This document shows positions 1,079-23,888 of a DNA stretch of 38,955 nt, in pieces (positions within the stretch are counted from its first letter, which is position 1; every line of letters starts with the position of its first letter). Both the position numbers and the translations under genes were made by a program. The notes beneath the pieces were generated by a model that worked only from the letters and a program-made list of their open reading frames with translations, ran no database searches and had not been told where the DNA came from. Source of the DNA: Candidatus Saccharimonadota bacterium (GTDB lineage: Bacteria > Patescibacteriota > Saccharimonadia > Saccharimonadales > UBA4665); the NCBI GenBank assembly GCA_025927655.1, contig JAICKY010000007.1, positions 1-38,955 of the forward strand. The letters run 5' to 3'.

Positions 1079-1119
1079 TGGAGATTTTTGTCTCAAATGT
1101 GCAGAATGGAAAATCTCCA
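1079..1119 (-). other. Intercistronic hairpin between cyoD and cyoE
   Basis: TGGAGATTTT and AAAATCTCCA form a perfect 10-bp stem (1079-1088 with 1110-1119) directly after the cyoD stop codon. No U-tract follows on the transcribed strand, so it is not a standard terminator. It could set mRNA stability or lower cyoE expression relative to cyoABCD; that role is inference. Confidence 0.5.
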
Positions 1120-1488
1120 CTAGAGACTGTCCTGAGACCGCATGTATTGGTCTATCTGCTGCGGCGTCATACGGTAGTTTAGGTTATTCATAATCCATAT
1201 ACTGCCGCCAACCAATATAAGCACTACGCTGAGCATCAGGCCCATAGTAACCAGCTTCCAATGCGAACCACGCTCTTCGGTAACATGCAAAAACAGAACC
1301 ATTTGTATTATGAACTGCAGCAATGCCAACAGTGCAAGCGTACCGACAATGGCACCCTGCGGCCATGTGCTGCGAGTCACCAGCAAATACGCGGTCAGCG
1401 TTAGCACAACGCACCCCACAAAGCCGACTACGTACCGTACAAGGCTAAGCGGATGCGCTGTTTCGTGCTCTGAAATAACCGGCTTCAT
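1120..1488 (-). CDS. cyoD: Cytochrome bo3 quinol oxidase subunit IV
   Basis: This small subunit (122 aa) has three predicted transmembrane helices and stabilises the copper-containing centre of bo3 oxidase. The family signature is visible: SLVRYVVGFVGCVVLTLTAYLLV, then a helix with TLALLALLQFIIQMVLFLHV, then a third helix ending in IWIMNNLNYRM. Its start overlaps the end of cyoC by 4 nt, which is typical of translational coupling within the operon. Identification rests on both sequence and position between cyoC and cyoE. Confidence 0.93.
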   Translation of the reverse strand: MKPVISEHETAHPLSLVRYVVGFVGCVVLTLTAYLLVTRSTWPQGAIVGTLALLALLQFIIQMVLFLHVTEERGSHWKLVTMGLMLSVVLILVGGSIWIMNNLNYRMTPQQIDQYMRSQDSL

Positions 1489-2093
1489 ATGCCTCGGCTC
1501 CCAAATAAGTACACAATGGTGAAAATGAAAATCCAGATAACGTCCAAAAAGTGCCAGAACAAACTGAGCAGTGTCAGGCGCTTCAGAACACTTTCGGTCA
1601 GGCCTTTTTTAATCATAAACACGCAGGTTACCGCCATCCAGAGCAACCCAAAGGTAATGTGCAGACCGTGTGTACCAACCAGTGTAAAGTAGCTGCTTAG
1701 GAATCCGCTGCGGCGCCAGCTGTTGCCGTCCAGCACCATGTTGTGGAATTCGCTGAGTTCCATACCAAGGAAGGTTAGGCCTAACAGGAATGTCACACCC
1801 AACCAGGCCAATACCTGGGTTCGGTCACGGCGCTGTGCTGCTAGCATTGCCATGCCGCAGGTGAAGCTGCTAGTGAGTAGCACCATAGTCTCAACCAATA
1901 CATATGGCAGTTTGAACAGATCATGGCCGGAAGGACCGCCGAATGTGTTGCCATGCAGCACCGCATATACCGAAAATAGCCCTGCAAACAGTACGCAGTC
2001 GGTCATCAGGTACACCCAGAAGCCAAAGGTCGTTTTTTCGGTAGCGCGGGCCTCTATTTGATGCATGTTCAATGTCGTTGTTACTTCGCTCAT
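1485..2093 (-). CDS. cyoC: Cytochrome bo3 quinol oxidase subunit III
   Basis: This five-helix, heme-copper oxidase subunit III protein has 202 aa, matching E. coli CyoC closely in size. Visible family features include 'FGFWVYLMTDCVLFAGLFSVYAVL' split over the first helix, the conserved acidic 'LGMELSEF' segment, and the 'GTHGLHITFGLLWM' helix with its paired histidines. The C-terminal helix 'LFWHFLDVIWIFIFTIVYLFG' is typical. It overlaps cyoB and cyoD by 4 nt each, so the three genes are probably translationally coupled. It has no cofactor of its own; known roles are structural support and keeping the proton path stable. Confidence 0.95.
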   Translation of the reverse strand: MSEVTTTLNMHQIEARATEKTTFGFWVYLMTDCVLFAGLFSVYAVLHGNTFGGPSGHDLFKLPYVLVETMVLLTSSFTCGMAMLAAQRRDRTQVLAWLGVTFLLGLTFLGMELSEFHNMVLDGNSWRRSGFLSSYFTLVGTHGLHITFGLLWMAVTCVFMIKKGLTESVLKRLTLLSLFWHFLDVIWIFIFTIVYLFGSRGI

Positions 2094-4072
2094 ACGTACT
2101 GTTCCTTTCGGCGAGACAGGGCGTGATCCATTTTCTCGACCTCTTTCGCAGTCAGGATGTACTCCGGTTCGTCATTGCTGGCCCGCACGATAATAGTAGT
2201 CACCAGCGCCAGCAATGCCAGCACCGACAGCCAATATATGTGCCACACCATGCCAAAACCAAACATGAACGCAAAACCAGCTATAAACACGCTGGCACCG
2301 CTGTTTTTGGGCAATAAAACATCCTCGTACTGTTTAACCGGTTTTTTGCCGGATTGCTTATCGACCCAGAATTGGTCGCGGTCTGTTATAACTGGCGTAG
2401 TGGTGAAATTGTAGACCGGAGCAGGGGACGGGACCGACCATTCCAGCGTACGGCCACCCCATGGATCGCCGGTAAGATCGCGCCGCTGGTCTCGCTGCCA
2501 TATACTGACAATCAGCTGTAATAACTGGAATCCAATACCGACACCGACACACAGGGCACCGATGCCTGCCACGATAAACAACGGCTGCCAGCCAAGTGAA
2601 GCATCGTAGTGGTCAAGCCGGCGCGTAGCACCCATCAGGCCTAAAATGTAGAGCGGCATGAACGCCAGTAGGAATCCTCCGATCCAGAACCAAAAGGCAA
2701 GTTTCCCTAGTCCCTCGTGCAGACGGAACCCAAAGATTTTCGGGAACCAGTAGGTTAACCCGGCAAAGTAGCCGAACACCACGCCGCCAACAATCATCAT
2801 ATGGAAGTGCGCCACCAAAAACAGGCTGTTGTGCACCTGGTAATCTATGGCAGGCACGCTCATGAGCACGCCCATAACGCCACCAATGGTAAAGACGACT
2901 ACAAAGCCCATAAACCAAAGCATGGGTGATTTAAAACTGATGCGCCCACGGTACATCGTGAACAGCCAGTTGAATATTTTCACGCCTGTCGGTATGGCAA
3001 TCACGCCAGTCATGATGCCGAAAAATGCATTCACGTCCGCCCCGGCACCCATAGTAAAGAAGTGGTGCAGCCACACCGTAAAGCTCAGCACTACAATAGC
3101 CCAAATAGCCCACACCATACTGGTGTAACCGAACAGTTTTTTACGCGCAAAGGTCGCGACGATCTCCGAATATATACCAAACGCCGGAAGCACCAAAATA
3201 TACACTTCGGGGTGCCCCCAGGCCCATATCAGGTTCACGTACATCATGGCATTGCCGCCGCTGCCCGCCGTAAAGAAATGCATGCCCAGGGTGCGGTCCA
3301 GAGCCAGCAGTGCCAGGGTAACCGTAAGGATAGGGAAGGCAAACGCTACCAGTGTCATGCTGGCCATAACGCTCCAGGCGAACATCGGCATTTTCATAAA
3401 CGTCATACCCGGCGCACGCATTTTTATAATAGTCACCAGAAAGTTTATGCCCGACAGCATACTGCCCACGCCAGCGATCTGGAGCGCCCATATCCAATAG
3501 TCGACACCGACAGTCGGGCTGTATTTGAGCTCCGACAGCGGCGGGTATGATAGCCAGCCGGCAGCCGAGAAATCACCAATCACCAGCGATAGGTTCACAA
3601 GCGCCATACCGGCAAAAAACAGCCAGAAGCTGGTAGCATTCAGGAACGGAAATGCCACATCCCGCGCACCAATCTGCAGCGGCAGCACCAGATTTATCAG
3701 TCCGAACATCAGGCCCATCGCCACAAAGAAAATCATAATAGTACCGTGCGCACTGACGATCTGCTGGAAATGATAGCTGTCCAGAATGCCGCCCGAGGCA
3801 CCGGCAGCCGTTGCTTGCTGGGTACGCATCAGCAGCGCATCACCGGCGCCGCGCAGCAGCATCACTACTGCCACGATGATGTACATCACACCGATTTTCT
3901 TTGGATCCTGCGTGGTCAGCCACTCCTTCCAGAGCCACTTCCAGCGCCCCAGCAGCGTAATGAGCACAACTATAGCGAACACACCCGCGACAATTGAACC
4001 AGCACCCCCGCGCGTAATCGCGTCCTGCGGTAGCTGGCTCCAGCTGAGTTTGCCCAGCAAACTTGCGAACAT
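2090..4072 (-). CDS. cyoB: Cytochrome bo3 quinol oxidase subunit I
   Basis: This is the catalytic subunit that reduces O2 to water and pumps protons. Its 660 aa match the 663 aa of E. coli CyoB. The heme/CuB ligands are all visible: WGHPEVY (His-Tyr cross-link site), the HH pair in WLHHFFTMG, and HNSLFLVAHFHMM near residue 395-410. The D-channel motif IGARDVAFPFLN is intact, indicating proton pumping. The quinol-site residues at the N terminus (RGAGD and the His in SAHGTIM) are conserved, so the electron donor is quinol and not cytochrome c. It overlaps cyoC, and its start touches the cyoA stop. Confidence 0.97.
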   Translation of the reverse strand: MFASLLGKLSWSQLPQDAITRGGAGSIVAGVFAIVVLITLLGRWKWLWKEWLTTQDPKKIGVMYIIVAVVMLLRGAGDALLMRTQQATAAGASGGILDSYHFQQIVSAHGTIMIFFVAMGLMFGLINLVLPLQIGARDVAFPFLNATSFWLFFAGMALVNLSLVIGDFSAAGWLSYPPLSELKYSPTVGVDYWIWALQIAGVGSMLSGINFLVTIIKMRAPGMTFMKMPMFAWSVMASMTLVAFAFPILTVTLALLALDRTLGMHFFTAGSGGNAMMYVNLIWAWGHPEVYILVLPAFGIYSEIVATFARKKLFGYTSMVWAIWAIVVLSFTVWLHHFFTMGAGADVNAFFGIMTGVIAIPTGVKIFNWLFTMYRGRISFKSPMLWFMGFVVVFTIGGVMGVLMSVPAIDYQVHNSLFLVAHFHMMIVGGVVFGYFAGLTYWFPKIFGFRLHEGLGKLAFWFWIGGFLLAFMPLYILGLMGATRRLDHYDASLGWQPLFIVAGIGALCVGVGIGFQLLQLIVSIWQRDQRRDLTGDPWGGRTLEWSVPSPAPVYNFTTTPVITDRDQFWVDKQSGKKPVKQYEDVLLPKNSGASVFIAGFAFMFGFGMVWHIYWLSVLALLALVTTIIVRASNDEPEYILTAKEVEKMDHALSRRKEQYV

Positions 4073-4977
4073 TACAGATTAACCTCCTGTGTTTGTGTGT
4101 TTGTACCGTCACCTATTGGCATCATATATTTCATAACTATCGTATCATACAGATCCGGCTGCACCTTGGAATAATAGGTGACGGGCACGTTTTCGCTCGG
4201 TTTAGCGAGCTGCGCGTAGGTGGTAGTACTAAGTTGTGCCGGATACAGATTATGTACCAGACGCAGCCACGCATTGTAGCCAACTTGCGGCATTGCCCGC
4301 ACCGTGAATTTCATATCCGCAAAACCTTTGCCGCTTATATTAGCCGCGACGCCGCCATAATTATTGGATTTGGAAGCCATAAGGTTCAGGTGTGTCGACA
4401 TACCAGGCATGGCATACATCTGTCCACCGAGTTGCGGTGCCCAGAATGACGTCATAACAGCGTCAGAGGTAATTTCGAAATCTACGGGTGTATCAACCGG
4501 TATCGCTACTTCGTTCACAGTTGCAATATGCTGATCAGGATATATAAACAACCACTTCCAATCCATTGCCACGACTTGAATGTGCAATGTTGGCTTGGTG
4601 GAGGTAAGCGGTTTGAACGGGTCCATAGCGTAGCTGCTGCGCCAGGTAATCACCGATACGATGCCAATAAGAACCGTCGGTATCAGCCACCAGACGGTCT
4701 CTGCCAGACGGTTACCATCGACATCTGGCGTATATTTGGCGTGTGCCGCGTTGTCTTCGCGGTACTTCCATGCAATATGCCACAGCAGCGCGAACACCGG
4801 CACCACGACCGTAACCGACAGCGCCGCGCAAAAGGCCATGAGGTTGCGCTCTTTGGCCCCAACCTTGCCGGCAGGCTGTAGCACCGATATAAGGTGTCCG
4901 TGCAGATACCACCCAGTGACCGCCACGACCGCCAAGCCTAGCAATACCCCTATCCATATCTTACTGCGTTTTTTCAT
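4072..4977 (-). CDS. cyoA: Cytochrome bo3 quinol oxidase subunit II
   Basis: This subunit has two N-terminal transmembrane helices and an external cupredoxin domain. The CuA ligands of cytochrome c oxidases are absent: where Cys-x3-Cys would be there is GGVAANISGKGFADMKF, as in E. coli CyoA. This marks a quinol oxidase. TSFWAPQLGGQMYAMPGM is the matching cupredoxin segment. I prefer the start at 4977 (MKKRSKIWIGVLLG, basic residues followed by a helix) to an in-frame ATG at 5016, because that ATG lies within the TACAAT -10 box of the likely promoter. First gene of cyoABCDE. Confidence 0.93.
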   Translation of the reverse strand: MKKRSKIWIGVLLGLAVVAVTGWYLHGHLISVLQPAGKVGAKERNLMAFCAALSVTVVVPVFALLWHIAWKYREDNAAHAKYTPDVDGNRLAETVWWLIPTVLIGIVSVITWRSSYAMDPFKPLTSTKPTLHIQVVAMDWKWLFIYPDQHIATVNEVAIPVDTPVDFEITSDAVMTSFWAPQLGGQMYAMPGMSTHLNLMASKSNNYGGVAANISGKGFADMKFTVRAMPQVGYNAWLRLVHNLYPAQLSTTTYAQLAKPSENVPVTYYSKVQPDLYDTIVMKYMMPIGDGTNTQTQEVNL

Positions 4978-5014
4978 GTTGTTAGTTAGAATTACCCTGA
5001 TTCCTCTTACGCTC

Positions 5015-5042
5015 ATTGTACCACGCTTTTATTGTCGTCTAT
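5015..5042 (-). promoter_or_regulatory. Probable promoter of the cyo operon
   Basis: On the minus strand an extended -10 box TGGTACAAT (TACAAT at 5015-5020) lies upstream of cyoA, with a weak -35 ATAGAC at 5037-5042 (16-nt spacing). Transcription would start near 5008 and give a leader of about 30 nt before the preferred cyoA start at 4977. No strong Shine-Dalgarno is visible in that leader. Confidence 0.55.
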
Positions 5043-5080
5043 GCAGCCCGCACCTTTGAAGCTTTGAAGCTTTGCAGCCC

Positions 5081-5154
5081 AGGAAAAGAGCAGCCGGAGA
5101 CGGCGAATTTATTTCGCCGCGCCGCGCGGTGAGAGAAACCTAGGTTTCTCTCAC
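5081..5154. repeat. Two-hairpin intergenic element, copy A
   Basis: First of four copies of the same structured element. A purine block (AGGAAAAGA) and GCAGCC lead to hairpin 1, a 7-bp stem CGGCGAA/TTCGCCG (5101-5107/5113-5119) with a 5-nt loop. A linker ending GCGCG follows, then hairpin 2, a perfect 26-nt palindrome at 5129-5154. It lies between the stop of the lactate dehydrogenase-like gene (5159) and the cyo promoter. The linkers diverge slightly from the other copies. No U-tract follows either hairpin in either direction, so a simple terminator is unlikely. Confidence 0.75.
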
Positions 5155-5158
5155 CTGC

Positions 5159-6823
5159 CTAAAAGTGGTCACGAATATGAGAATAGCTATAGTCCCAGTC
5201 CGCGTCGGATTTTTTGTGCGGATTGAAAATATTTGCCGGGTCAAAGGTTTGTTTTACTTCTTTGAACAAACCCAAAATTTCCTTGCCAAATTGGGCCTGC
5301 AGCCACGGCCCACGCACCAAACCGTCGTTGTGTTCGCCGCTTAGGCTACCGCCGTACTTCAGCACCAAGTCGTTGACTTCTTTCTGAGACGGCTCAATCT
5401 TTTTGCGCTCTTTGGGATCTTCGATCTTCATGAGCGGGATCACGTGGAAGTTACCGTCGCCCATGTGCCCGGCGATAGTCGCAAACAGTTTGTACTTTTT
5501 AATGATTTTTTGTAGCTTCGGCAGGAATTCCACCAGGTTTTCAGGGGGCACGATAAAGTCGTCGATGTAGGGCGCGGTGTGCTTGTCTTTGACCTTGCTA
5601 CGCAGAAGCTGAAAGCTGTAACGGCGCATAATCCAGAACTTTTCGCTTTTGCCTTCGGTGGGGTCTTCCTCGAATCCATTAATTTCGTAGCGGGCGCGCA
5701 GGTGGCCGAGCTCGCGGTGCAAGGCTTTGACTTTCTCCCGGACTTCTTCTTCGGTTTGGCCGTTAAATTCGACCATTAAAATAAGCTTGGGGACGCCGCG
5801 GAGCATCTGCAATCCATCCGGAATGAGCGTAATGAGCAGGTGAATAAAGCGTTTTGCGCCGAGCAGTTTTAGGAATGCCGGCATAAAGCGGATACTCAGC
5901 CACAAGGTTGCGTCATCGAAACTCTCGAACGTGGCTGGGTTGTGCTCCAGTATTTTTGGGATCAGTTCGCCAAGATCGTTAATGTTTTTCATAAATAGTA
6001 CCAACAGGCCGGAGTGCGGGCGGTGCGGCACCAGGCGGTAGGTTATATCAGTCACGAACCCGAGCGTACCTTCGGAACCGACGATAAGTTTAGTCAGGTC
6101 AAACATGCCGGTCTCGCGGTCCCAGACTTCCCACAGCGTGTAGCCCATGCTGTTCTTGCTAACGTTGGGTTTTGCAGCCTTGATCTCGTCGTAATGCTGT
6201 TCGCACAGGTCGTAAATCTTTTTGTAAATGTTGCCTTCGTAATCCTTTTGGGCAATCTTTTTGTCGAGCTCTTTTTTGTCGATCGGCTTCACCAGGTATT
6301 CATTACCATCGGCGAACACCACGCGCAGCTCATTCACAAAATCTTTTACCTTGCCGTACTCCAGCGATTTTTCACCGCCACTGTTGTTGGCAACCATGCC
6401 GCCAACCGTGCATAAATCGCGGCTGGCAGGGTAGCTGGGCATCAGCGCGTTCTTTTTGAGTGTTTCGGCCTCAAAATCACGGTAAAACACGCCTGGTTGG
6501 GTTTGGGCCTCTGTAGCAGTCACCCGCTCAACCTTATTGAAGTGAGTGTTGAAATCGACAATCACCGATTCGTTTATAGCCCCGCCAGCCATATCAGTAC
6601 CAGCGCTGCGGGCAGTTACCGAAAGCTCCGGCATGCTTTTCTTTTTGCTGGCGACCAGTTTTACCAGTGTTTGCACATCGGCACTGTCTTTGGGCTTCAC
6701 GACCAGCTTTGGCCGCAGCTCGAACATGCTGGCATCGTGGCTGTATTTTTCTTTTGCTTCGGGGGAGTCGTCCAGCTCGCCCTTAAACCCGTTTTTTTGG
6801 AGCGTATTTTTGAATTCATCCAT
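5159..6823 (-). CDS. FAD-linked oxidase, D-lactate dehydrogenase-like
   Basis: This 554-aa flavoprotein belongs to the GlcD/Dld type. An N-terminal FAD-binding PCMH domain (about residues 30-240) shows TARSAGTDMAGGA and GGMVANNSGGEKSLEYGK, the usual FAD-contact segments. The C-terminal FAD-oxidase domain has GHMGDGNFHVIP and GEHNDGLVRG, which carry the catalytic and metal-binding His residues. Such enzymes oxidise D-lactate or another 2-hydroxy acid and pass electrons to quinone. The neighbouring cyo operon and NDH-2 gene support a respiratory role. The exact substrate cannot be read from sequence; glycolate or D-2-hydroxyglutarate are alternatives. No Fe-S partner gene is present. Confidence 0.85.
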   Translation of the reverse strand: MDEFKNTLQKNGFKGELDDSPEAKEKYSHDASMFELRPKLVVKPKDSADVQTLVKLVASKKKSMPELSVTARSAGTDMAGGAINESVIVDFNTHFNKVERVTATEAQTQPGVFYRDFEAETLKKNALMPSYPASRDLCTVGGMVANNSGGEKSLEYGKVKDFVNELRVVFADGNEYLVKPIDKKELDKKIAQKDYEGNIYKKIYDLCEQHYDEIKAAKPNVSKNSMGYTLWEVWDRETGMFDLTKLIVGSEGTLGFVTDITYRLVPHRPHSGLLVLFMKNINDLGELIPKILEHNPATFESFDDATLWLSIRFMPAFLKLLGAKRFIHLLITLIPDGLQMLRGVPKLILMVEFNGQTEEEVREKVKALHRELGHLRARYEINGFEEDPTEGKSEKFWIMRRYSFQLLRSKVKDKHTAPYIDDFIVPPENLVEFLPKLQKIIKKYKLFATIAGHMGDGNFHVIPLMKIEDPKERKKIEPSQKEVNDLVLKYGGSLSGEHNDGLVRGPWLQAQFGKEILGLFKEVKQTFDPANIFNPHKKSDADWDYSYSHIRDHF

Positions 6824-6914
6824 ATTGCTTAAGCTTACTGTTTTCCATGCAGTGTTGCAAGAAATACTTCGCTTCTAAAACTCAAACCAGGGGATGGATA
6901 CACCCCATCGTTAC

Positions 6915-6977
6915 AAGACAAACCCTACGGGTTTTTCTACTTGGGCGGCCAGGCTTTGCCCAGCCTGCTACTTTTCC
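6915..6977 (+). repeat. Second intergenic repeat family, copy 1
   Basis: AAGACAAACCCTA and GGGTTTTTCT form a 6-bp hairpin with a short loop. A GC-rich foldable segment and then CTACTTTTCCG (6968-6977) follow. The same order occurs at 30509-30576 with nearly identical ends but a different GC-rich middle. This copy lies in the 251-nt gap between the divergent lactate dehydrogenase-like and NDH-2 genes, about 60 nt before the NDH-2 promoter. The first hairpin with its T-run resembles a weak terminator, but no gene on this strand lies upstream that would need one. Confidence 0.6.
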
Positions 6978-7035
6978 GCTGCTGCTCCCAACGATTAGCA
7001 GAAAAACGAAATCAGGAACCACTGGTTGGTTGTTA

Positions 7036-7065
7036 TTGCGTACCACTTGTGGTTATTGCTACAAT
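7036..7065 (+). promoter_or_regulatory. Promoter of the NDH-2 gene
   Basis: A -35 TTGCGT (7036-7041) is separated by 18 nt from the extended -10 TGCTACAAT (TACAAT 7060-7065). Only 9 nt separate the -10 box from the ATG at 7075. Transcription should therefore begin at or just before the start codon, so the mRNA is predicted to be leaderless. Confidence 0.65.
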
Positions 7066-7074
7066 TACGTTGAT

Positions 7075-8274
7075 ATGACAGAAAAACAACAAAAACAGCG
7101 CATCGTAGTCGTGGGTGGCGGCTTCGGCGGAGTAAAAACTGCACTGGAACTCGCCAAACATCATGAACTATTTGAAGTTACCTTAGTGTCAGACCGGCCG
7201 GATTTCTGGTATTTCCCTACGCTATACCACACCGCTACCGGCGGCACCCGCGCACAAAGCAGTATTGCGCTAAAATACCTGTTCAAAAACACCGGCGTTA
7301 GAATCGTGGCCGGCAAAGCAGTCAAACTTGACCGCGAGACCAAAGTCGTAACCCTGGCAGATAAAACTCCCGTGCCGTACGACAAGCTCGTACTGGCACT
7401 CGGCGTGGTTACCAATTATTTCGGTATTCCGGGGCTGCCGGAATATTCATTCGGCATAAAATCCATCGGCGAGGCCGAGGAACTGAAGCGCCATCTGCAC
7501 AAACAAATTCTGGACGAGGGCAAGCCGGACCTGAACTACGTTGTTGTCGGCGGCGGCCCGACTGGCATAGAACTGTCTGGGGCGCTAGGCGAATACCTGC
7601 ATTTCATTATGAAACAGCACCATATCAAAGACCGTCCGGTGCATATCGATCTGGTCGAAAATTCTCCACGGCTTATGCCGCGTATGCCGAAGCCGGTCGG
7701 CAAGGCTATTGAGCGCCATTTGCGTCATCTGGGCGTCAAGCTATACCTGGGGAAGGCCGTACAGGGCGAAACCGCCGACGAACTGACCGTATCGGGCAAG
7801 CCTATCCGCAGCCACACGGTCATTTGGACAGCCGGTCAGGCCAATAATTCATTCTTTAGCGACAATATGTTTGCCCTGAGCCCCCGCAAAAAAGTGGTGG
7901 TGGACGAATTCCTACGTACCGAGAAAGATATATTCGTCGTCGGCGACAACGCCGAAACCATGTACAGCGGCATGGCCCAAACCGCTGTGTACGATGCCGA
8001 ATTTATTGCCCATAACTTCGTGAAAGAAGCCGAAAACGAACCAAAGTTAGCCTACCGGCCCAAAAAGCCCGTATATGTTATGCCTGCCGGCCCACGATGG
8101 GCAGCCGTAGAATGGGGTAAAACCCACATGTACGGCAAGCTAGGTTGGTTCCTGCGCGAAGCCGGCGATTTTGTGGCCTTCACCGATATAGAGCCATTGC
8201 CTCAGGCCGCGCTCCAGTGGGCACACACCTTGCAAGACCAGCATCTGTGCAGCGTTTGCGGCGCTGTAGCGTAG
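7075..8274 (+). CDS. ndh: Type II NADH:quinone oxidoreductase (NDH-2)
   Basis: This single-subunit, non-pumping NADH dehydrogenase oxidises NADH and reduces quinone at the membrane surface. The 399-aa protein has two Rossmann folds: VVVGGGFGG near residue 12 for FAD and VVVGGGPTGIELSG near residue 156 for NADH. The later FVVGDNAET motif (about 288) closes the FAD site. I chose ATG 7075 because upstream in-frame codons run through the intergenic repeat and promoter and give an implausible leader peptide. With no complex I in view, it would be the NADH entry point to bo3 oxidase. Sulfide:quinone reductase is a less likely alternative, as its catalytic cysteine pattern is not seen. Confidence 0.9.
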   Translation: MTEKQQKQRIVVVGGGFGGVKTALELAKHHELFEVTLVSDRPDFWYFPTLYHTATGGTRAQSSIALKYLFKNTGVRIVAGKAVKLDRETKVVTLADKTPVPYDKLVLALGVVTNYFGIPGLPEYSFGIKSIGEAEELKRHLHKQILDEGKPDLNYVVVGGGPTGIELSGALGEYLHFIMKQHHIKDRPVHIDLVENSPRLMPRMPKPVGKAIERHLRHLGVKLYLGKAVQGETADELTVSGKPIRSHTVIWTAGQANNSFFSDNMFALSPRKKVVVDEFLRTEKDIFVVGDNAETMYSGMAQTAVYDAEFIAHNFVKEAENEPKLAYRPKKPVYVMPAGPRWAAVEWGKTHMYGKLGWFLREAGDFVAFTDIEPLPQAALQWAHTLQDQHLCSVCGAVA

Positions 8275-13929: not shown

Positions 13930-14763
13930 TTACGCAGCGTTCGGGTTGCGGCGAGTAGACTTCTTTTTACCAGAAGACTTCTTCGCAGTACTTACGTGCT
14001 TCTTGACTGCTGCGGTTTTACCAGTGGCAACAGCAGTTTTCACGTCAGCCTCAGCTTCGGTAGCAACCTCTGACTGTGTCAGGGTCGCGTTCAAGCGGCT
14101 GGTCTTAGCCTTTTCAGACGCAGATTCTGCAACCTCTGCCAATTCGGTTTCCACGAAGATCAGATTGTACAGGTTGAAACCGATCACTGCACCCAGAACT
14201 GGGCCCAGAACGTAGGTTCCCCAGCCCCATTGGTGCAAACCAAGCGCAACGGCAGGGTTCAGGATACCGGCAGACCCAAGTGACGCCACCAACGACCCTG
14301 CAGCGAGACCACCACCAATAGCAGCAGCCTTTGCGTACAGGCTAAAGCGCTGGTAAATAGCAGCCGCCCATACGAAGGCGAAGACAAACGTACCGACTAC
14401 TTCGGCCACCAGTACGCGTGAGCTGTAGGTACCAGTGTTGTGTACGCCGGTTAGTTTGGTAAGGTAGATGAACAGTTCCCATGCAACTGCACCACCAAGC
14501 AACTGTACTGCCAGGTAGCTCAGCGCCTGCAACGTGCGCAGTTTGCGAACGGTCCACAGACCAATAGTCATCGCCGGGTTAAAGATTGCCCCGGAGATGC
14601 CGGCCAGCGACAAGGTCATCAGTGCGACCATCAGGCCAGCCGCCGATGCGATAAAGTAGCCCAGACTCAACTGAGAATGACTAACCGCGAGCACAATGAG
14701 CGTCAGGGCCGTCGTGCCCAAAAACTCACCCACGAGCATCGCGAGCTTATTCTTACGAAACAT
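13930..14763 (-). CDS. Aquaporin/MIP-family channel with altered pore motifs
   Basis: This 277-aa membrane channel has the two half-helix repeats of the major intrinsic protein family, with NPA boxes at Asn62 (FNPAMT) and Asn169 (LNPAVA). Two usual features are missing. The Arg that follows the second NPA in nearly all aquaporins is Val172, and the His before the first NPA (GAHxNPA) is replaced (GAIFNPA). This changes the selectivity filter, so water or glycerol transport cannot be assumed. The last 60 residues form a hydrophilic, Lys-rich cytoplasmic tail (AKKSSGKKKSTRR) unusual for the family. A strong GGAGGT precedes the ATG. Transcribed alone, toward the helicase-nuclease gene. Confidence 0.88.
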   Translation of the reverse strand: MFRKNKLAMLVGEFLGTTALTLIVLAVSHSQLSLGYFIASAAGLMVALMTLSLAGISGAIFNPAMTIGLWTVRKLRTLQALSYLAVQLLGGAVAWELFIYLTKLTGVHNTGTYSSRVLVAEVVGTFVFAFVWAAAIYQRFSLYAKAAAIGGGLAAGSLVASLGSAGILNPAVALGLHQWGWGTYVLGPVLGAVIGFNLYNLIFVETELAEVAESASEKAKTSRLNATLTQSEVATEAEADVKTAVATGKTAAVKKHVSTAKKSSGKKKSTRRNPNAA

Positions 14764-15002: not shown

Positions 15003-16853
15003 CTAAGAAGATCTGTAGGCTATTTCATGATAGCTGGTCTTGTGCGGTCCAAAGAAGACTTTTGTATATAAACGCATAATACTCACCCCTACAAGCAAAT
15101 ACCCCAGGCAAAAGAGTACTATCTGGAAAACATGGCTTACCGGGATAAAACTCAAAAGAATGTCTTGCGCTAAAAAGGAAGGACTAACGGGGAACGCCAT
15201 GAAAAGAAGACATACGATGAAAAACAGATGGCCCAGTTTTTTGAACGCATATATAGAACCATGGTAGTCCTGTAATGCAGTCTGCTCACCTTTTATTTCT
15301 AAGTACCAGAGGCAGGCATGGCCCACTATGAATGCCGTTGCCACTCCTGCGCCGTATATAACAAGGTACTTCCAGTTCCCGGCAGAGGCTAAGCCCAAGA
15401 AAAGCGCCCCAAAAAGGTGTCCCACCAGTATAAGGTTCCAGCATGTTCTGGCAGAGTTCTTCGTCGTATACGCCCGTATATAAAAGACAATGCTTATAAC
15501 GGCTGCGGCGCTGGAAATAGCCAGTTTTGAGCCGGTGGATACTGCCATGGACGCAGCGGCACCAGCAGTGGCCAAAAAGACTGCCACGGAAACCACTTGA
15601 GCGGGGAATCCATCCAGGAACGCGAATACTCGCCCGACGGGCTTAAGCGGCCTCCATACGTAATGGCTCACTGCCGTATTCATGTTCCATTCCTTGATGC
15701 TCAGGACGTAGAAAGTTGCACGAAGCCTGCCCAAGAGGGTGTTTTTGATCTTTTCAGGAGGGAGTACGAAAGAGAAAAACTGGTCATGCACAAGGTAGCC
15801 CACGACCGACGGGGAAATAAGCAGCTGATACGTCCGCAGGGAAGCGTTGCTCACAAAGTGCAGCAGTGCCAGCCACTGGAGCCCGGCAGCGACCTCGACG
15901 AACATAATGCCAATCTGGGTGACGGATGCGTACGCAATCTGTACTTTTATGGATGATTGGACTCGGGTAATGGACGAAACGATGATTGCAGTCACAAATC
16001 CCACGGCTGCAATGGTAATTCGGAGCCACACGCTGCCCTGCCAGAGCGGATACGTTCTGAGTAACAGGAACAGGCCCATGTGCACAGAGAGCGCGCCGTA
16101 AAAGATAGCACTGGACGTGGTGGGGCCTTCCATGGCACGCGGCAGCCAGTACGAGAAGGGGAATTGCGCAGATTTGATCAGAGCGGTTACGAGCAGGAAA
16201 AGGCCGAGCAGGGCCAGCTGGCTTTCGTGCCCCGCAACCAAACCCGAAAGTTCAGAGAAATTCACGCTCTTTTCAAAAATATGGTGCGCATACCAGATGG
16301 CGACCAGTAGGAAAGCATCAGCAATACGGTACACCGAAAAGACTTTCAGCGCGTTTCTGGCCGGCAGAAACCGGTCCCGGTAAAACGCAATGAGCAGCAC
16401 GGAACTTATGCCGATAAACTCCCAACCCAGCAGCAGCACTTCAAAGTTACCGGCGAGAATAATGAGCGTGAGCCCTATAAAGAACAGCAGGACCGTGTAA
16501 TAAAACCTCTTGAAACCTGGCTCGCGGTGCATGTAAAATCTGCTGAAAATGAAAATCAGCGTCGTCATAATCGTAGTCATCCCCAAAAATACCGCCGAAA
16601 GCCGGTCGAAATAGAAAGCAAGCGCAAATGTGTAGTGAGGGCTTGCGTACAAAGAGCCTATGCTCGTAAATACCGGAGAAGCACCCGCGCTGAGCCATTG
16701 GTAGCCCAAAACGAAAAACGTCACCAGCTCCAGAAGTATTGCGGCGATGGCAATGAAAAAGATGGTGCGCTCCCATTTTTTGGGCGTCAGAATACAACCG
16801 GCAAGACCGATGACGGGAACGAGTATTAGTGTGGTGAGAAGTTGCGTTACCAT
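15003..16853 (-). CDS. dabB: DabB, proton-conducting subunit of the inorganic-carbon pump (NuoL/ND5-like)
   Basis: This 616-aa polytopic membrane protein belongs to the proton-conducting membrane transporter family (NuoL, MrpA, HyfB relatives). It has at least ten hydrophobic helices. The LGWEFIGISSVLLIAFYRDR segment with its conserved Glu, and the KSAQFPFSYWLPRAMEGPT helix with its Lys, are hallmarks of this family. No other Nuo or Mrp gene is nearby. Instead, the adjacent gene is DabA (DUF2309), and this pair defines the DAB inorganic-carbon transporter. In DAB systems the cation gradient passing through DabB drives CO2 hydration by DabA. The gap to dabA is only 16 nt, so they are co-transcribed. 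Confidence 0.9.
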   Translation of the reverse strand: MVTQLLTTLILVPVIGLAGCILTPKKWERTIFFIAIAAILLELVTFFVLGYQWLSAGASPVFTSIGSLYASPHYTFALAFYFDRLSAVFLGMTTIMTTLIFIFSRFYMHREPGFKRFYYTVLLFFIGLTLIILAGNFEVLLLGWEFIGISSVLLIAFYRDRFLPARNALKVFSVYRIADAFLLVAIWYAHHIFEKSVNFSELSGLVAGHESQLALLGLFLLVTALIKSAQFPFSYWLPRAMEGPTTSSAIFYGALSVHMGLFLLLRTYPLWQGSVWLRITIAAVGFVTAIIVSSITRVQSSIKVQIAYASVTQIGIMFVEVAAGLQWLALLHFVSNASLRTYQLLISPSVVGYLVHDQFFSFVLPPEKIKNTLLGRLRATFYVLSIKEWNMNTAVSHYVWRPLKPVGRVFAFLDGFPAQVVSVAVFLATAGAAASMAVSTGSKLAISSAAAVISIVFYIRAYTTKNSARTCWNLILVGHLFGALFLGLASAGNWKYLVIYGAGVATAFIVGHACLWYLEIKGEQTALQDYHGSIYAFKKLGHLFFIVCLLFMAFPVSPSFLAQDILLSFIPVSHVFQIVLFCLGYLLVGVSIMRLYTKVFFGPHKTSYHEIAYRSS

Positions 16854-16869
16854 ATGAGTTATTTACCGT

Positions 16870-19452
16870 TTAATGATGCGGGCCGATTATATGTATGGGG
16901 AGGTTTTCCTGTGTGGCATCCAGAATATGATTGGTTTTCATTTTCAGGGTTGTCTCAAACATACGGGACAGATCGTGCACGACAGGCAGTTCTTTGGTAA
17001 GCGGGGCGTACGGCACGAATTTTCTTTCTTTGAAGACGTAGAGAGCTTTTTCTTTTGGATGCAGTACAACTAGTTGGATCCACTCATTGGCGAACCATTC
17101 GTAGAGCGCGGGGTTTGCCCGTATAGTTTTTTTAACCACCTCGGGGTAGTGCTCGACGACCATCAGCAGCCGTACGGGATCATGTACCTCGATCATCTGT
17201 AGCGGAAGTCCGGACCGCAGGTCGCCGTCGCTGCTGTTTGCAACTCCCACCAACCCCATGACGTTATGGGGCAGCTTTGTGCCCGCGCCCAGCTTGTAGT
17301 TGTCCATCCGTGAAAAGAAATATTCCAGATTTATGCCTCCGCACACAACCCCCAGCGGAGCGAGCACATCACTCAATAGCGTGCCTTCCGGGTCGGTCGT
17401 ATAATCGTAAGAATTCAAAAATGCCCGGCGGTCCAGGAACAGACGTTTCGTAAGACTCCTTTTGCCTACGATACACAGCGCGTTGGTGCCATGTCCCAAT
17501 TCGGGCCGGGGCTCGTAGTAGGAAACCGAGCGCTTCTTTATGTCGTTGCGGATCTTCTTTATGTGCTGTTTTGTGCTTATGGACATAAATCTGCGGGATC
17601 GTTCTTTGGCATCCAGGTCCAGAGCATCTTCGAACAGCCGCTTATTTTTAGCATGCAACCAGCTGTTCTCTTCCGTCAGAGCTTTTTCATCGTAAAACCG
17701 GACTTCGTCAGCCGCCGTATCGTGCATGCCGCCTACGAATTGCGTGGCAAGAGGTATAGACAGGCCGCGTTTCTTCAGCAACTCCCGCACCGGCTGGTAG
17801 TTTGCCATCCAGGCGAAAACCCGGGCATTGACCAAGCCTGGCCGTCCGCTGCAGGCACCGCAATCGTGCGCACCATGATGAGGATTGTTGGCGCTGCTCG
17901 ATCCATGGCCTATAGCGTACACGAGCGGTGCAAAATCCCTGGTCATGCCAATGCACCGAAGAAATTTTTCTACGCGATCGGCCATTTCTGCAGTGGTAAA
18001 TCCTACTTGCAAGCCCTTTTCCTTGTCTTGCTCTCCGGTGTGCAGAATGGTCAGGTCTGCGTTCGGGTCCATATGGGAAAACGCGTCGGCAATCGCCGGG
18101 CTCATAGTGGGGTTTACCAGGTTGGCAACGAGCTTACCCAGTGCTGGGATGCCTAGCAGATACGAAAACAGAAAACCTCTGACCAGCTTGTGGGAGTGCT
18201 TGGTGTACATGATTTCTTTCGCGTGCACGGGCGAATCATCCCCGCTAACTTCTTTAATTAGATACTTGGGGGTAACCGGTCCAGGACACAGCTTGTCGTA
18301 AAATTTTGCGTGAGCCGGGCGAAAATAGAACTCCACGCCAAAAAACCCTGGCGCGCCGAACGTTTCGGAACGGTTGTCCAGGCTTTCTAAGTATGTTCGC
18401 AGGGAATATTCCCGTTCATCCAGGCAGAAGATAGACTGAAAGCTCTTTGTGGCCGTGTCCTCTGCGGCCGGCCTGGCGGGGAGCGTAAGCAGCAAGCCGG
18501 AAAGCGCGGTGTCGTAATAGCTCCACTCGAATGCATCCTGCCATATTTTGATAACTTCTTGCAGCTCGCTGTCCGGCTCGTCTGCGAACATATCTACCGG
18601 CGGCTGTGAAACGTTGCTTCCCAGCGGTTTCCATTCTTCTCCCAGGCTGCCCGTCAGCATATCGATCTCGAGCAAAAGCTCTAACATTATCATATCTTTC
18701 AGAGAAATTTTCTTTGGATACAAAAGCGATTCCGGCTTGTCCTCCAGGGTGGACACCATGCCCGACCACCCCTGGTGGCTAAACTGTTGGTCATACACGT
18801 ATTGTGCAAAGTATGCTTCTTTACCTTTACCCACCAGTATTTCCAGGAGTTTTGATATGGTACATGATTTGTCATAAAGAAGATCGCGCGCCTTTTTTGT
18901 TTTGAAAAAGCTTGCCATACTTAGGTCTTCCAGGCTACGCAGTGCATTTAGGAGGCCTTTGTCTTCGAAGGGAAACGGCGAAAGAGCGATACCTTGGTCA
19001 ATATAGCTACAGATAATGCGGAATAGGAGCGGTTGTACTGCATTATCCATATCGATGTGATATTGTCGCTTCCACTCGCTTCGCAGCTTTCCGGCGCGCG
19101 GCTCGAGGGTCCAGCTGTACATTTTGTGTAGAACCCTTAACTGCCACTCTTCGAAATCTTTGCTGCCTTTTCTGTCTTTTATTGTCCTGGCTAAGATTTC
19201 TGGAGTAATCCGGTTGATCCTGTACAGATCCCTATACTCGGTGAGCGAGAATGTAGTTTGGTATCCAAAAATTGCTGACGCTTTAAAGATCGCATCATAA
19301 AATTTCATATCTTGAAACGCGTGCAACGTGTTGTGATGTAAAAAATCCTTGAGCGGACCTTGGGTGGGCAAATAGTGCTTTAGCTCGTGCAACAAGTGTT
19401 GCTCATCGAAATGATGATCATGTTTTTGAGAGATAGTTGCGGTTGTATTCAT
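16870..19452 (-). CDS. dabA: DabA, zinc-dependent CO2-hydrating subunit (DUF2309/UPF0753)
   Basis: This 860-aa cytoplasmic protein resembles beta-carbonic anhydrase around its zinc site and captures CO2 as bicarbonate when coupled to DabB. The expected zinc ligands are all present: Cys343 and Asp345 in IFCLDERE, His516 in IGHGSSS, and Cys531 in HDCGAC. As I recall the Halothiobacillus DabA2 ligands (C351, D353, H524, C539), all four match with the same offset of 8 residues. A further CxxC-type Cys follows at 534. It is the first gene of the dabAB operon, with a leader of roughly 120 nt and no clear Shine-Dalgarno. The start at 19452 leaves a normal N terminus (Asp/His-rich, then HELKHYLPTQGPLKDF). 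Confidence 0.93.
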   Translation of the reverse strand: MNTTATISQKHDHHFDEQHLLHELKHYLPTQGPLKDFLHHNTLHAFQDMKFYDAIFKASAIFGYQTTFSLTEYRDLYRINRITPEILARTIKDRKGSKDFEEWQLRVLHKMYSWTLEPRAGKLRSEWKRQYHIDMDNAVQPLLFRIICSYIDQGIALSPFPFEDKGLLNALRSLEDLSMASFFKTKKARDLLYDKSCTISKLLEILVGKGKEAYFAQYVYDQQFSHQGWSGMVSTLEDKPESLLYPKKISLKDMIMLELLLEIDMLTGSLGEEWKPLGSNVSQPPVDMFADEPDSELQEVIKIWQDAFEWSYYDTALSGLLLTLPARPAAEDTATKSFQSIFCLDEREYSLRTYLESLDNRSETFGAPGFFGVEFYFRPAHAKFYDKLCPGPVTPKYLIKEVSGDDSPVHAKEIMYTKHSHKLVRGFLFSYLLGIPALGKLVANLVNPTMSPAIADAFSHMDPNADLTILHTGEQDKEKGLQVGFTTAEMADRVEKFLRCIGMTRDFAPLVYAIGHGSSSANNPHHGAHDCGACSGRPGLVNARVFAWMANYQPVRELLKKRGLSIPLATQFVGGMHDTAADEVRFYDEKALTEENSWLHAKNKRLFEDALDLDAKERSRRFMSISTKQHIKKIRNDIKKRSVSYYEPRPELGHGTNALCIVGKRSLTKRLFLDRRAFLNSYDYTTDPEGTLLSDVLAPLGVVCGGINLEYFFSRMDNYKLGAGTKLPHNVMGLVGVANSSDGDLRSGLPLQMIEVHDPVRLLMVVEHYPEVVKKTIRANPALYEWFANEWIQLVVLHPKEKALYVFKERKFVPYAPLTKELPVVHDLSRMFETTLKMKTNHILDATQENLPIHIIGPHH

Positions 19453-19815: not shown

Positions 19816-20700
19816 ATGGCACGATTACATTTTGAAGCAGCCGACCAAGAGCAGGTGTGGATCGGTGATAGTGGCGAACCAGGCCCTACCGCCGTTATCC
19901 TGGGAGGTATACATGGTTCTGAAGTTTCAGGCGTGCAGGTAATCGATGGCCTGCGGCAAAGCCTGTCGGTCGATGCCGGCCGCGTAATCCTGGTCAAGGG
20001 CAATCCGCGCGCAATCGAGACAGGCATCCGTCAAACGGAGGTAAACCTAAATCGCCAGTTTCGCGAGTTAACATCCGAAGAACAGTTGCGCGACCCCAAA
20101 GACTTGCCTTATGAAGTCCGACGAGCCCAGGAACTGATGCCTGTTTTAGAACTCGGCGATAGTTCACTCGACATCCACGGTTATAGCCGTCCGGATGGTA
20201 CGCCATTTATCATTACCGAGCGCAACGGCTTTGCCGTCGCGCAATCTATTGGTGCACCTATTATTTCTTCGGGCTGGGCCGAAGCCGAACCTGGCGGTAC
20301 CGACGCATATATGTATGCATTGGGACGTATTGGCCTGTGCTACGAAGTGGGTTGGAACGGAGCACCCGAAGCAGGGCGCAAACGTGGCCTTGCGGCTGTG
20401 AGTCGTTTTTTGGGCACAAGCGGACTCATCGAGCTTACTGGTGCGCCGCTGGATGGCAAGCCACGCTACATCCAAACACTCCACGCTGTTATTGCTGGCG
20501 AACATGGGCTGGATATGAGCGGGGCTTACCATTCATTCGAACGGCTACAGCCAGGCGAGATAATAGCCTGGAACGGCGCAGAACCCATTTATGCCAAAGA
20601 GAATCAAGTGATTATCTTCCCGCCAGATGCCGACCATCTCCGTCAGGAACCAGGCGAAGAAGCCTTTAACCTAGGTCAGGAATTTGACCTGGCTGCATAA
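19816..20700 (+). CDS. Zinc-dependent amidohydrolase of the succinylglutamate desuccinylase/aspartoacylase family
   Basis: This 294-aa enzyme shows the M14-like AstE/AspA zinc site: GGIHGSE (His33, Glu36), then LNRQF, then LDIHG (His121), with the likely catalytic Glu177 in CYEVGW. Family members cleave an amide bond to a free amino acid, such as N-acetylaspartate or N-succinylglutamate. ATG 19816 is chosen over an upstream in-frame ATG at 19759, because the promoter lies between them and the extra 19 residues look unnatural. Its 3' end overlaps the convergent ATP-grasp gene by 25 nt. Two ATP-grasp ligases nearby suggest that it cleaves, edits or recycles their product; the substrate is unknown. 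Confidence 0.82.
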   Translation: MARLHFEAADQEQVWIGDSGEPGPTAVILGGIHGSEVSGVQVIDGLRQSLSVDAGRVILVKGNPRAIETGIRQTEVNLNRQFRELTSEEQLRDPKDLPYEVRRAQELMPVLELGDSSLDIHGYSRPDGTPFIITERNGFAVAQSIGAPIISSGWAEAEPGGTDAYMYALGRIGLCYEVGWNGAPEAGRKRGLAAVSRFLGTSGLIELTGAPLDGKPRYIQTLHAVIAGEHGLDMSGAYHSFERLQPGEIIAWNGAEPIYAKENQVIIFPPDADHLRQEPGEEAFNLGQEFDLAA

Positions 20701-21980
20701 TCCGTTTGTTGAACCGTAATAGTAACTAGCTCGCGGAGCCGGGCAACATCACGCTCCAGCTGCTCTGAATTTTCGTTGCTCAATATGGCATCGACGATAA
20801 GTTCGCCGCCGGCATCTGCAAACAGCGCCATATCGCCCGGCTTGGCGTGTGATTCGACAAACACAACACTCTCCAGTTTGCGGGCTTCCTCGACACCAGC
20901 AATTTCGGTGATGATGCCTTCTTCTTCGGCGTAAATATTGACACCCGCTGCGTGCTTAACTGGCTGAGCCGGAATTTCCGGTTCCAGACCGATGCGCACG
21001 GCCAGATCATTGTAATAATGATCGATATCGTAGGCTTCGCGATATAGCCCCTCGCGGTATCCGCCAATACGCGGACCAAGCTCTATAACTTTCCAGCCGT
21101 GCTCCGTCAGAAACATTTCAATATGTGCCGTCGAAGCACGTAGGTTCAAAGCACGCACAGCAGCCTCTGCAGTCCGATACGCTCCGGCTGTTTCCTCGTC
21201 TGACAGCGCCGTAGGAATAATGTGGCGATAGCTGTAAAAGCCAGGCAAGCCAACGGCATGAGCAGTAATCACTTTGACTGGCGGCAGGCAATAGAGCGTG
21301 CCGGTGGGATCCGCATAGGCATCCACCGAATACATATCACCTTGCATCATTTCCTCTACCAATACACTCGGCTGACCGGTGCCGTTTTCGCGTTCGTATA
21401 CTTCGTGTACAACTTCGAATGTGCGATCCAAGCAAGCTTCCAGCTCCGCCTGATCATTACAGCGGCTCACCAGTAGTGAAGCATACAAACCGTTCGGCTT
21501 CACAATAACAGGGAATTCAAACCCCTTAATAGTTTCCGTAAGCGTTGCAGGGTCATATTCCGTTAGTCGAACATATTTTGGCGTCAGATTTTCATCGTAC
21601 GCACTCAGCCGGTCACGCATCAGGATCTTTTCAGTAGACCAGAGCAAAGAAGATTCGGTCGGCAGGTTGATGTACGGCATGAACGGAATAGCCTTACGAA
21701 AGTCCTGTATCGCAGTCTCAAACCGGCAGGTTGCGGTCAGCAAACGATCGGTATACGGCTTGAGTGTACGCTGCAGTTCGTCGGGGTTGTCAAAGTCACA
21801 AATAACTTCCTTAAAGAAGCCGGTTTCGTCCTTTACCCGATGTTTGTTGTCTACGAAGTTTTTGTCCACGAGGGTGATACCCTGCAGGGGTCGTCCCAGC
21901 TTTTCGGACAATTTCTTAACAGCCGCCACCAAACCTGGTTCTACTTCACGGATTGATACTATGATGTCTCTTTCTGACAT
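20676..21980 (-). CDS. ATP-grasp ligase, carnosine synthase/amino-acid ligase-like
   Basis: This 434-aa protein belongs to the ATP-grasp family, which activates a carboxylate as acyl phosphate and joins it to an amine or similar group. Visible parts are the ATP-binding lysine strand FPVIVKPNGLYASLL, the hinge segment VLVEEMMQGDMYSVDAY, and the metal-binding residues Glu288 (HIEMF) and Glu300 (VIELGPRIGG). This pattern is close to stand-alone amino-acid ligases such as BacD or carnosine synthase, and differs from biosynthetic purine or carbamoyl-phosphate enzymes. A Shine-Dalgarno-like GAAAGG precedes the ATG. It is convergent with the AstE/AspA-type gene and divergent from a second ATP-grasp gene, with an operator-like palindrome between. 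Confidence 0.82.
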   Translation of the reverse strand: MSERDIIVSIREVEPGLVAAVKKLSEKLGRPLQGITLVDKNFVDNKHRVKDETGFFKEVICDFDNPDELQRTLKPYTDRLLTATCRFETAIQDFRKAIPFMPYINLPTESSLLWSTEKILMRDRLSAYDENLTPKYVRLTEYDPATLTETIKGFEFPVIVKPNGLYASLLVSRCNDQAELEACLDRTFEVVHEVYERENGTGQPSVLVEEMMQGDMYSVDAYADPTGTLYCLPPVKVITAHAVGLPGFYSYRHIIPTALSDEETAGAYRTAEAAVRALNLRASTAHIEMFLTEHGWKVIELGPRIGGYREGLYREAYDIDHYYNDLAVRIGLEPEIPAQPVKHAAGVNIYAEEEGIITEIAGVEEARKLESVVFVESHAKPGDMALFADAGGELIVDAILSNENSEQLERDVARLRELVTITVQQTDYAARSNS

Positions 21981-22079
21981 CGCCTGTAACCTTTCTATGC
22001 TACAAACGAAAGATGTTAAATGCCACTAGCATAAACACATCGTCCGTAGTACAATTATTAACCGTTGTGATATAAAGGT

Positions 22080-22105
22080 GTGATATATATCACCGGTATT
22101 ACATT
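22080..22105 (+). promoter_or_regulatory. Operator-like palindrome and -10 box of the second ATP-grasp gene
   Basis: GTGATATATATCAC at 22080-22093 is a perfect 14-bp palindrome; a partial copy (GTGATATA) occurs about 13 nt upstream. A -10-like TACATT (22100-22105) ends 9 nt before the ATG at 22115. The palindrome falls where the -35 and spacer would be, so a bound protein would block the promoter. A second TACAAT (22050-22055) lies further upstream. No regulator gene is adjacent. Confidence 0.45.
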
Positions 22106-22114
22106 GTAACATTT

Positions 22115-23434
22115 ATGCATACAATCCAATCCACTATTTTTTGGAAGACCGCGTTGTGGCGGGTTATGCCTGCAAAGCGTACATTATCGTATTATCTTCC
22201 TGCTGGCACTCAGTATTTTTATGGATATCCCGCCGGTGAAGATGCAGGTTTTGTTAATCTGGTACCTCCAGAGACAGAAGAATTGGTCGCAGTGCGGCCT
22301 TTTTGTTGCGCGGGCAAGGACGTATCCGTCATTAGTTTTGCTGCCACCGACCGTTCCTGCATTGGCCCAAAGCTAAGCCAGCAGCTAAGGCTACCCCGTA
22401 TAATTTCTAGACAAAATACGGTACTGCCTGCATCCATTGATGTCACTCTAAGGGGTAAGGAGCGGAACGACGCCATAAAGCAGGCGCTGCTTAAACACGT
22501 TAAGCCAGGGACTTTTATGATGGCCCAGCCGTACACTGATGCAGCGTTGGCTCATCTGTACCAAATCCCGCCGTCGCTCTCTTTTTGGCTCAACGACAAA
22601 CACAGTATGCCCGAATATATCAGCCCGGAGTTTCTGCCTAAGCGGCTAGGAGAATACGAAAGCGGACAGGCCTTCGTAGAACAGGCAGCAACGCTCCCAC
22701 TGCCGTTCGTAGCCAAGGCTTCGGCTTCCAGCTCGGGCGATGGCGTGTACATTTGCAGAACGCCGGCAGATGTCGAACGGTCAGCCAAAAAACTCGGGCA
22801 GCTCGAAATGACCGTTATCGTCGAACAATACATCGATGCGGTAAAAAACTACGGCGTACATTTTGGCATACCGGCTGACAGTAGTAAACCAATCGATATT
22901 ATCGGCGTTAACGAACAGCTGACTTCCCCCGAAGGACAATTCCTGGGTGGCGTCATCCGTTCCCAGGAACTGCCTGTAGAGCTAGTGGATGCCAGCCGCT
23001 ACCTGCGACATGAAGTACTGCCCTGGATCCGCAAAATGGGCTGGTACGGAATCGGTGGCTTTGACGTACTAATTGACAGTCAGGGTATGGCCTATTTTAT
23101 TGACTGCAACTTCCGGATGACAGGCATGTCGGCGTTTCACTTTATGGTCAGAAACGAGCGGCTGCATACTCCGCTTATCAGTTTTAGTGCCAGTTTTACC
23201 GGCACCCAAGCGGCTTTTGAACGAGCAGTACTGGCTCCGTTAGGGCCAGGTATCTGCCTCCGGCTCATTGCAGTAAGCCACCACGATGGCGTTTGGCGAT
23301 GCAACGGAGCGATATGTTACCAAAATCATGATAATGATTTACCAGTTGAAGCGATTGAACAGTTGCTCGGCCGCGGTTTAGAATCAGAGGCACTCACGCA
23401 GGTCGTTGAATCTGCAACGCAAAAGCAAATGTAG
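22115..23434 (+). CDS. ATP-grasp ligase, second and divergent type
   Basis: This 439-aa protein has a C-terminal ATP-grasp domain (about residues 180-350). The phosphate-binding LPFVAKASASSSGDGVYI strand, the hinge MTVIVEQYID, and the metal-binding pair Asp317 (GGFDVLID) and Asn332 (FIDCNFRMTG) are visible. The N-terminal 170 residues fit no family I recognise and may bind the acceptor. It differs clearly from the neighbouring ATP-grasp protein, so the two are not recent duplicates and probably catalyse successive ligations. It is transcribed divergently from that gene. Its 3' end faces atpC, with a weak CTAGCA/TGCTAG hairpin (23439-23463) between. Product unknown. Confidence 0.78.
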   Translation: MHTIQSTIFWKTALWRVMPAKRTLSYYLPAGTQYFYGYPAGEDAGFVNLVPPETEELVAVRPFCCAGKDVSVISFAATDRSCIGPKLSQQLRLPRIISRQNTVLPASIDVTLRGKERNDAIKQALLKHVKPGTFMMAQPYTDAALAHLYQIPPSLSFWLNDKHSMPEYISPEFLPKRLGEYESGQAFVEQAATLPLPFVAKASASSSGDGVYICRTPADVERSAKKLGQLEMTVIVEQYIDAVKNYGVHFGIPADSSKPIDIIGVNEQLTSPEGQFLGGVIRSQELPVELVDASRYLRHEVLPWIRKMGWYGIGGFDVLIDSQGMAYFIDCNFRMTGMSAFHFMVRNERLHTPLISFSASFTGTQAAFERAVLAPLGPGICLRLIAVSHHDGVWRCNGAICYQNHDNDLPVEAIEQLLGRGLESEALTQVVESATQKQM

Positions 23435-23459: not shown

Positions 23460-23887
23460 CTAGTGTTTCTGGTGGCGTCGCTTCAGGCCTGCCACTTGCA
23501 GTCGGACCGCATGGCGATCAACTAACTGTTGGGCATGTTCCAGGCTGACTTCGTCTTTCGCTTCGGCCTTCAGTTTCTTGGCGCGCTCCATGGCGGCTTC
23601 AGCCTCGGCTTCGTTGATGTCGTCAGCATGGTCAGCTTCATCTACCAGCACGCGCAGCGTGTTGTTGCTGACTTCGATAACACCGCCGCTAATCGCAAAA
23701 TATTCACGATTCCTGTCAGCATCTCTCACGTCTTTACGTATGGCAATCACACCGTACTTGGCGACACTGACGAGCGGCATGTGGTCTTGCAATACACCAA
23801 TCTCACCATCCAGCGTTGGCAGGATGATTTCGTAGGCATCGCCATCGAACTTCGTACCGGTCAGGGCTACTAGCTGGAAGTGAATCA

Positions 23888-23888
<1 letters not shown>
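23460..23888 (-). CDS. atpC: ATP synthase F1 subunit epsilon
   Basis: This 142-aa central-stalk subunit has an N-terminal beta sandwich with the signature EIILPTLDGEIGVLQDHMPLVSV and a C-terminal helical hairpin rich in Ala, Glu and Lys. It couples rotation of gamma to the c-ring and can inhibit ATP hydrolysis. It begins with GTG, whose G is shared with the atpD stop (TAGTG), so translation is coupled. The tail ends in a short basic His-containing stretch (KRRHQKH). Last gene of the operon. Confidence 0.95.

Follow-up and report, generated by a model that had tools for sequence, protein, structure and literature searches.

Two divergent genes of a Saccharibacterium, here called agA and agB, encode dissimilar ATP-grasp enzymes. 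In our estimate, there is an even chance that the two act as a two-ligase module whose product is a small peptide or an amino-acid amide. The characterized members of the two families (the L-amino acid ligase, or LAL, BL00235 and the dipeptide ligase LdmS) join free amino acids with ATP, and the proposal of a module follows from this activity of both families, from the intact catalytic residues, and from the pairing of the genes in at least two lineages. That the nearby hydrolase gene ast belongs to the same module seems rather unlikely. The DNA analyzed, hereafter the window, is a stretch of 38,955 nucleotides, the full length of contig G000:C15 in a genome of 871 kb that is 87% complete.

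Gene Organization

In the list of open reading frames, ast and agA run toward each other with a 25-bp overlap, agA and agB diverge from a 134-bp gap, and agB converges with atpC (Table 1). The three genes are not a single operon, and the gap between agA and agB may hold a shared promoter region. Promoter and terminator scans of the window and a search with Rfam returned nothing useful, the promoter-like matches being uninformative. The ast reading frame has two candidate starts, GTG at 19759 and ATG at 19816; judged from the homologs, the ATG is the more likely.

All three are real genes: related genomes hold homologs of each at 30–60% identity that keep the catalytic residues. Invariant residues include H33, E36, and H121 (the zinc ligands) and E177 of ast in 6 aligned homologs, the acidic residues E288 and E300 of agA in 10, and D317, D330, N332, and R334 of agB in 9. 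A preliminary description of this DNA had reported three genes at this place, convergent and divergent, with intact zinc- and metal-binding residues and with two dissimilar ATP-grasp ligases among them; the reading frames, the conserved residues, and the assignment of agA to the LAL type and of agB to the relatives of LdmS bear this out.

Table 1. Features of the window in and around the slot that adjoins the ATP synthase genes
Feature	Position	Strand	Size	Assignment and basis
Aquaporin gene	13930..14763	-		Conserved left side of slot, in nearly all relatives' slots; PF00230
dabB	15003-16853	-		Inorganic-carbon pump gene in slot; for dabB and dabA together, PF10070 (675 bits) and PF00361/PF00662
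dabA	16870-19452	-		Inorganic-carbon pump gene in slot; basis given with dabB
ast	19816..20700	+	294 aa	AstE/AspA-type Zn-dependent amidohydrolase; PF24827, AF2 model
agA	20676..21980	-	434 aa	L-amino-acid-ligase-type ATP-grasp enzyme; PF13535 and PF18603 LAL_C2
agA–agB divergent intergenic region	21981..22114	.	134 bp	ORF layout
agB	22115..23434	+	439 aa	LdmS-like ATP-grasp enzyme, Patescibacteria subfamily; NF047900, AF2 model
atpC	23460..23888	-		Conserved right border of slot; PF02823, synteny with relatives

The Two Ligases

Both domains of an L-amino acid ligase are found above gathering in agA: ATP-grasp_4 (PF13535, 67.9 bits against a gathering threshold of 27) and LAL_C2 (PF18603, 36.9 bits against 29.4). 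Its best solved relative is BL00235 (3vot). The agB protein exceeds the gathering thresholds of generic ATP-grasp models only (PF08443 and PF02786), and its score of 101.9 bits with NF047900, the LdmS equivalog, is below the cutoff of 475. Its AF2 model (pLDDT 88.6) matches LdmS (7r8q) with a Z score of 38.9, the next unrelated entry giving 21.8; the best solved relative is 7r8p. The LdmS-type fold is present and the ATP-grasp catalytic motifs align. agB is a divergent relative of the Asp-Met dipeptide ligase LdmS of Staphylococcus aureus.

Of 392 genomes that represent the class, 4 have the gene, the window's among them. Its close relatives come from Patescibacteria only (Saccharibacteria, Magasanikbacteria, Peregrinibacteria, and Doudnabacteria), and the distant ones are cyanobacterial, staphylococcal, and alphaproteobacterial. 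Among viral contigs, 17 pattern matches included no relative of agB.

In a two-ligase module, agB would make a dipeptide containing an acidic residue, Asp-X by analogy with LdmS, and agA would add another residue or form the partner bond. If ast took part, it would cut or recycle the product, as the M20 and isoaspartyl peptidases encoded beside LdmS homologs may do elsewhere. The ligases might instead modify a macromolecule, such as a protein tail in the manner of RimK, a component of the cell wall, or a molecule of the host. These genomes often carry RimK-like ATP-grasp genes, and in G117, a genome of another family, such a gene lies beside agB. Yet the closest characterized members, LdmS and the BL00235-type LALs, use free amino acids, and no candidate target protein is encoded nearby; we regard modification of a macromolecule as improbable.

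Recurrence of the Ligase Pair

The pairing that underlies the proposed module is seen outside the window. Strong matches to PF13535 occur in 3 of the 12 Patescibacteria genomes that carry agB, one in each (the window's and two of Magasanikbacteria), and in all three the matching gene is the immediate neighbor of agB, so that co-location recurs in two lineages wherever an agB genome has a strong LAL-type gene. In one of the Magasanikbacteria (L083), the neighboring gene overlaps agB and encodes a protein with ATP-grasp_4 and LAL_C2; in the other (L085), it converges with a gene that fuses an ATP-grasp_4/LAL_C2-type protein to a D-Ala-D-Ala-ligase-like domain. Because these two loci share their ileS...ruvA surroundings, with agB inverted, they are counted as one origin. 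The agA-type proteins of Saccharibacteria and Magasanikbacteria form separate clades in the tree (support 100/100); therefore the pairing probably arose twice, unless one of the two genes was exchanged for another after a single origin. We estimate the chance of such pairing at (2/900)^2, or about 5e-6, taking two neighbors, two lineages, and about 900 genes, a count inferred from the size of the genome.

At the agA position in G117 stands the RimK-like gene, likewise divergent from agB; it is weaker evidence, since G117 carries, in addition to agB, two further genes of the RimK family. A strong LAL-type gene is absent from 9 of the 12 agB genomes, and agA homologs stand without agB in 27 related genomes; thus neither gene requires its partner.

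Other features accompany LAL-type genes in these organisms. Tandem copies occur in L009 and L012, and small ORFs of about 160–170 aa that resemble membrane proteins adjoin LAL-type genes or lie one gene away in three genomes (L011, 7346–7861; L012, 11329–11811; L016, 7232–7747).

The Genomic Slot

In relatives, a conserved slot extends from a uvrD-like helicase gene to atpC and holds the aquaporin gene and usually a gene for a protein of about 300 aa. In the window, the aquaporin gene is followed by dabB–dabA, ast, agA, and agB. The contents between aquaporin and atpC vary across 60 sampled loci, and agA, agB, and ast would be cargo of this variable slot, flanked on one side by the conserved uvrD–aquaporin block and on the other by the ATP synthase operon. 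The identical slot holds agB in G117, and an agA homolog adjoins atpC in G013; this suggests that the agA–agB pair may be old at this place, with one gene or the other since lost in some lineages. Profiles of the agA and agB types gave 0 matches in the 60 sampled slots. The slot does not carry ATP-grasp genes as a rule, for among the slots seen just those of the window, G013, and G117 contain one.

The slot also carries genes of inorganic-carbon metabolism. An energy-coupled inorganic-carbon pump, dabA plus dabB, stands beside the ATP synthase operon of a Saccharibacterium in the window (15003–19452) and in L060 (8715–13124); G006 has these genes in the identical slot at 79% and 70% identity. 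The usual slot gene of relatives encodes a carbonic-anhydrase-like protein (for example L035, 930–1850; L036, 14228–15415; L037, 1078–2070). A CxDxR ... H ... C pattern is invariant in the 15 of these proteins sampled, 11 of which match CDCA, the family of cadmium carbonic anhydrases (best E 1.7e-9). An ORF with CxDxR is present in 46 of the 60 slots and in neither dabAB slot (window, L060), as if one bicarbonate system had replaced the other; the evidence for replacement is weak, because about a quarter of slots have no such ORF in any case. Elsewhere in the window (190–8274), this reduced genome has an aerobic respiratory block: quinol-oxidase-type respiratory genes (COX1 family), together with genes for an NDH-2-like pyridine nucleotide oxidoreductase, a UbiA prenyltransferase, and an FAD-linked oxidase.

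A search of 148 related genomes, the window's own included, found agB in 3 others, ast in 3 others, and agA homologs in 27 others, and no genome besides the window's own combines as many as two of them. A conserved ast–agA–agB trio is thereby ruled out; conservation of the neighborhood across Saccharibacteria, which the preliminary description had put forward as a check, came to 0 of the 148 genomes beyond the window's. That description had proposed a peptide or amide pathway. Such a pathway is favored by the second occurrence of the ligase pairing, in Magasanikbacteria, and by the peptidases that recur beside LdmS-family ligases; as a pathway of three genes it does not stand, no two being together in relatives and the relatives of ast sitting with GNAT genes or with nothing relevant. 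Each enzyme falls in a known family, but none reaches a single-function (equivalog) cutoff.

It is possible, though less likely than not, that these are three independent accessory genes in a common cargo slot, two single-step ligases and a deacylase, each acting alone. The varying slot contents, the lack of any two of the genes together in relatives, the absence of a partner from most relatives of agA and agB, and the pairing of ast relatives with GNAT genes are all as expected for independent genes. Independence is disfavored by the LAL-type gene that adjoins agB wherever a strong one is present, in two phylum-level lineages.

The Hydrolase ast

The ast protein has both marks of the AstE/AspA family, a PF24827 domain above gathering (56 bits) and the HxxE...H zinc site with its catalytic glutamate. 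Its AF2 model (pLDDT 90.4) matches AstE (Z 24.3), DoeB (Z 22.3), CphZ (Z 20.8), and the aspartoacylase ASPA (Z 19.6), and the best solved relatives are aspartoacylase and AstE. It scores 44.5 bits with the aspartoacylase equivalog NF002601 (cutoff 180) and 25.1 bits with the succinylglutamate desuccinylase equivalog TIGR03242 (cutoff 305), reaching neither. D163 may occupy the site of the substrate-binding arginine of aspartoacylase, the residue correspondence being tentative.

A GNAT gene adjoins the ast relative in 3 of 5 other loci, and an ATP-grasp gene in 0 of 5. The three GNAT acetyltransferase genes (L101, 980–1513; L105, 989–1510; L106, 2300–2815) are those of three Saccharibacteria, where the ast relative and its neighbor may form an acetylation/deacetylation pair. 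Such neighbors, directly adjoining the relatives in G018, G346, and G352, together with a fold that groups with AstE, DoeB, and aspartoacylase, give some credence to the view that ast is a deacetylase for the salvage of N-acyl amino acids, unrelated to the ligases; a two-ligase module would be compatible with this. Salvage is a fair contender rather than a favored reading, for GNAT genes are absent from the immediate surroundings both of ast in the window and of its closest relative, that of G133 (about 40% identity).

A link between ast and the ligases is suggested by the surroundings of other LdmS relatives. In S. aureus, the LdmS-type gene shares a single base with the gene for an M20 metallopeptidase; in G624, a PepD-like dipeptidase gene directly follows agB; and in the cyanobacteria Coleofasciculus and Gloeothece, an isoaspartyl peptidase gene directly follows the agB relative. 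A partial isoaspartyl peptidase match beside the Kovacikia copy makes Kovacikia probably the third such cyanobacterium. LdmS relatives thus recur next to peptidases that are not homologous to one another, and ast is therefore a plausible partner in the window; by analogy, it could be the cutting partner of the ligases, although the relatives of ast itself do not bear this out. Four other agB genes (those of Doudnabacteria L086 and L087, G762, and G444) are convergent with a gene for a LysA-like PLP decarboxylase (L086, 6175–7512; L087, 9246–10496; L098, 7403–8686; L099, 4308–5633).

Implications

Since the ligase pairing recurs in a distant relative, an undescribed small-peptide pathway is plausible. 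A more specific version, which we advance tentatively, is a Patescibacterial pathway in which LdmS-type and LAL-type enzymes jointly build an Asp-containing peptide of two or three residues that a lineage-specific peptidase reclaims. In organisms with near-minimal genomes, such a peptide would serve for storage or buffering or be directed at the host. Saccharibacteria are thought to draw most of their building blocks from hosts, and a dedicated small-peptide route would give their cells a biosynthetic product of a kind that they seldom have. The families of ast, agA, and agB are already known, each gene being a divergent member; to our knowledge the pairing of the ligases is new, and a search of the available literature on ATP-grasp enzymes in Saccharibacteria found nothing relevant. 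Direct assay is feasible, as each candidate enzyme is one protein with no recognized carrier or membrane domain.

Comparison with Known Systems

The closest parallels are partial. agA has the PF13535 and PF18603 domain pair of the L-amino acid ligases (BL00235/3vot and the BacD family) but reaches no equivalog model. ast shares fold and zinc site with the AstE/AspA family (succinylglutamate desuccinylase, aspartoacylase, DoeB, and CphZ) but falls under every equivalog cutoff, and among the Saccharibacteria examined only the window's genome has an AstE/AspA-type gene beside ATP-grasp ligase genes. The likeness to the beta-Asp-Arg hydrolase CphZ is one of fold, with a Z score lower than that for AstE.

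Cyanophycin metabolism (CphA, cyanophycinase, and CphZ or isoaspartyl dipeptidase) couples ATP-grasp synthesis of an Asp-containing compound to an AstE/AspA-type dipeptide hydrolase (PMC10206079). The window likewise has ATP-grasp and AstE/AspA-type enzymes, but its ligases are of dipeptide-ligase types, and no cyanophycin synthetase or cyanophycinase gene was recognized in it. LdmS, the L-aspartate-L-methionine ligase of S. aureus (SAOUHSC_02373; 7r8p/7r8q), differs from agB in its sequence, at about 20% identity, and agB has a second ATP-grasp gene as partner. The two enzymes nevertheless share their fold over 370 residues and their catalytic motifs, and just as a peptidase gene adjoins the LdmS-type gene in S. 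aureus, the hydrolase gene ast lies near agB.
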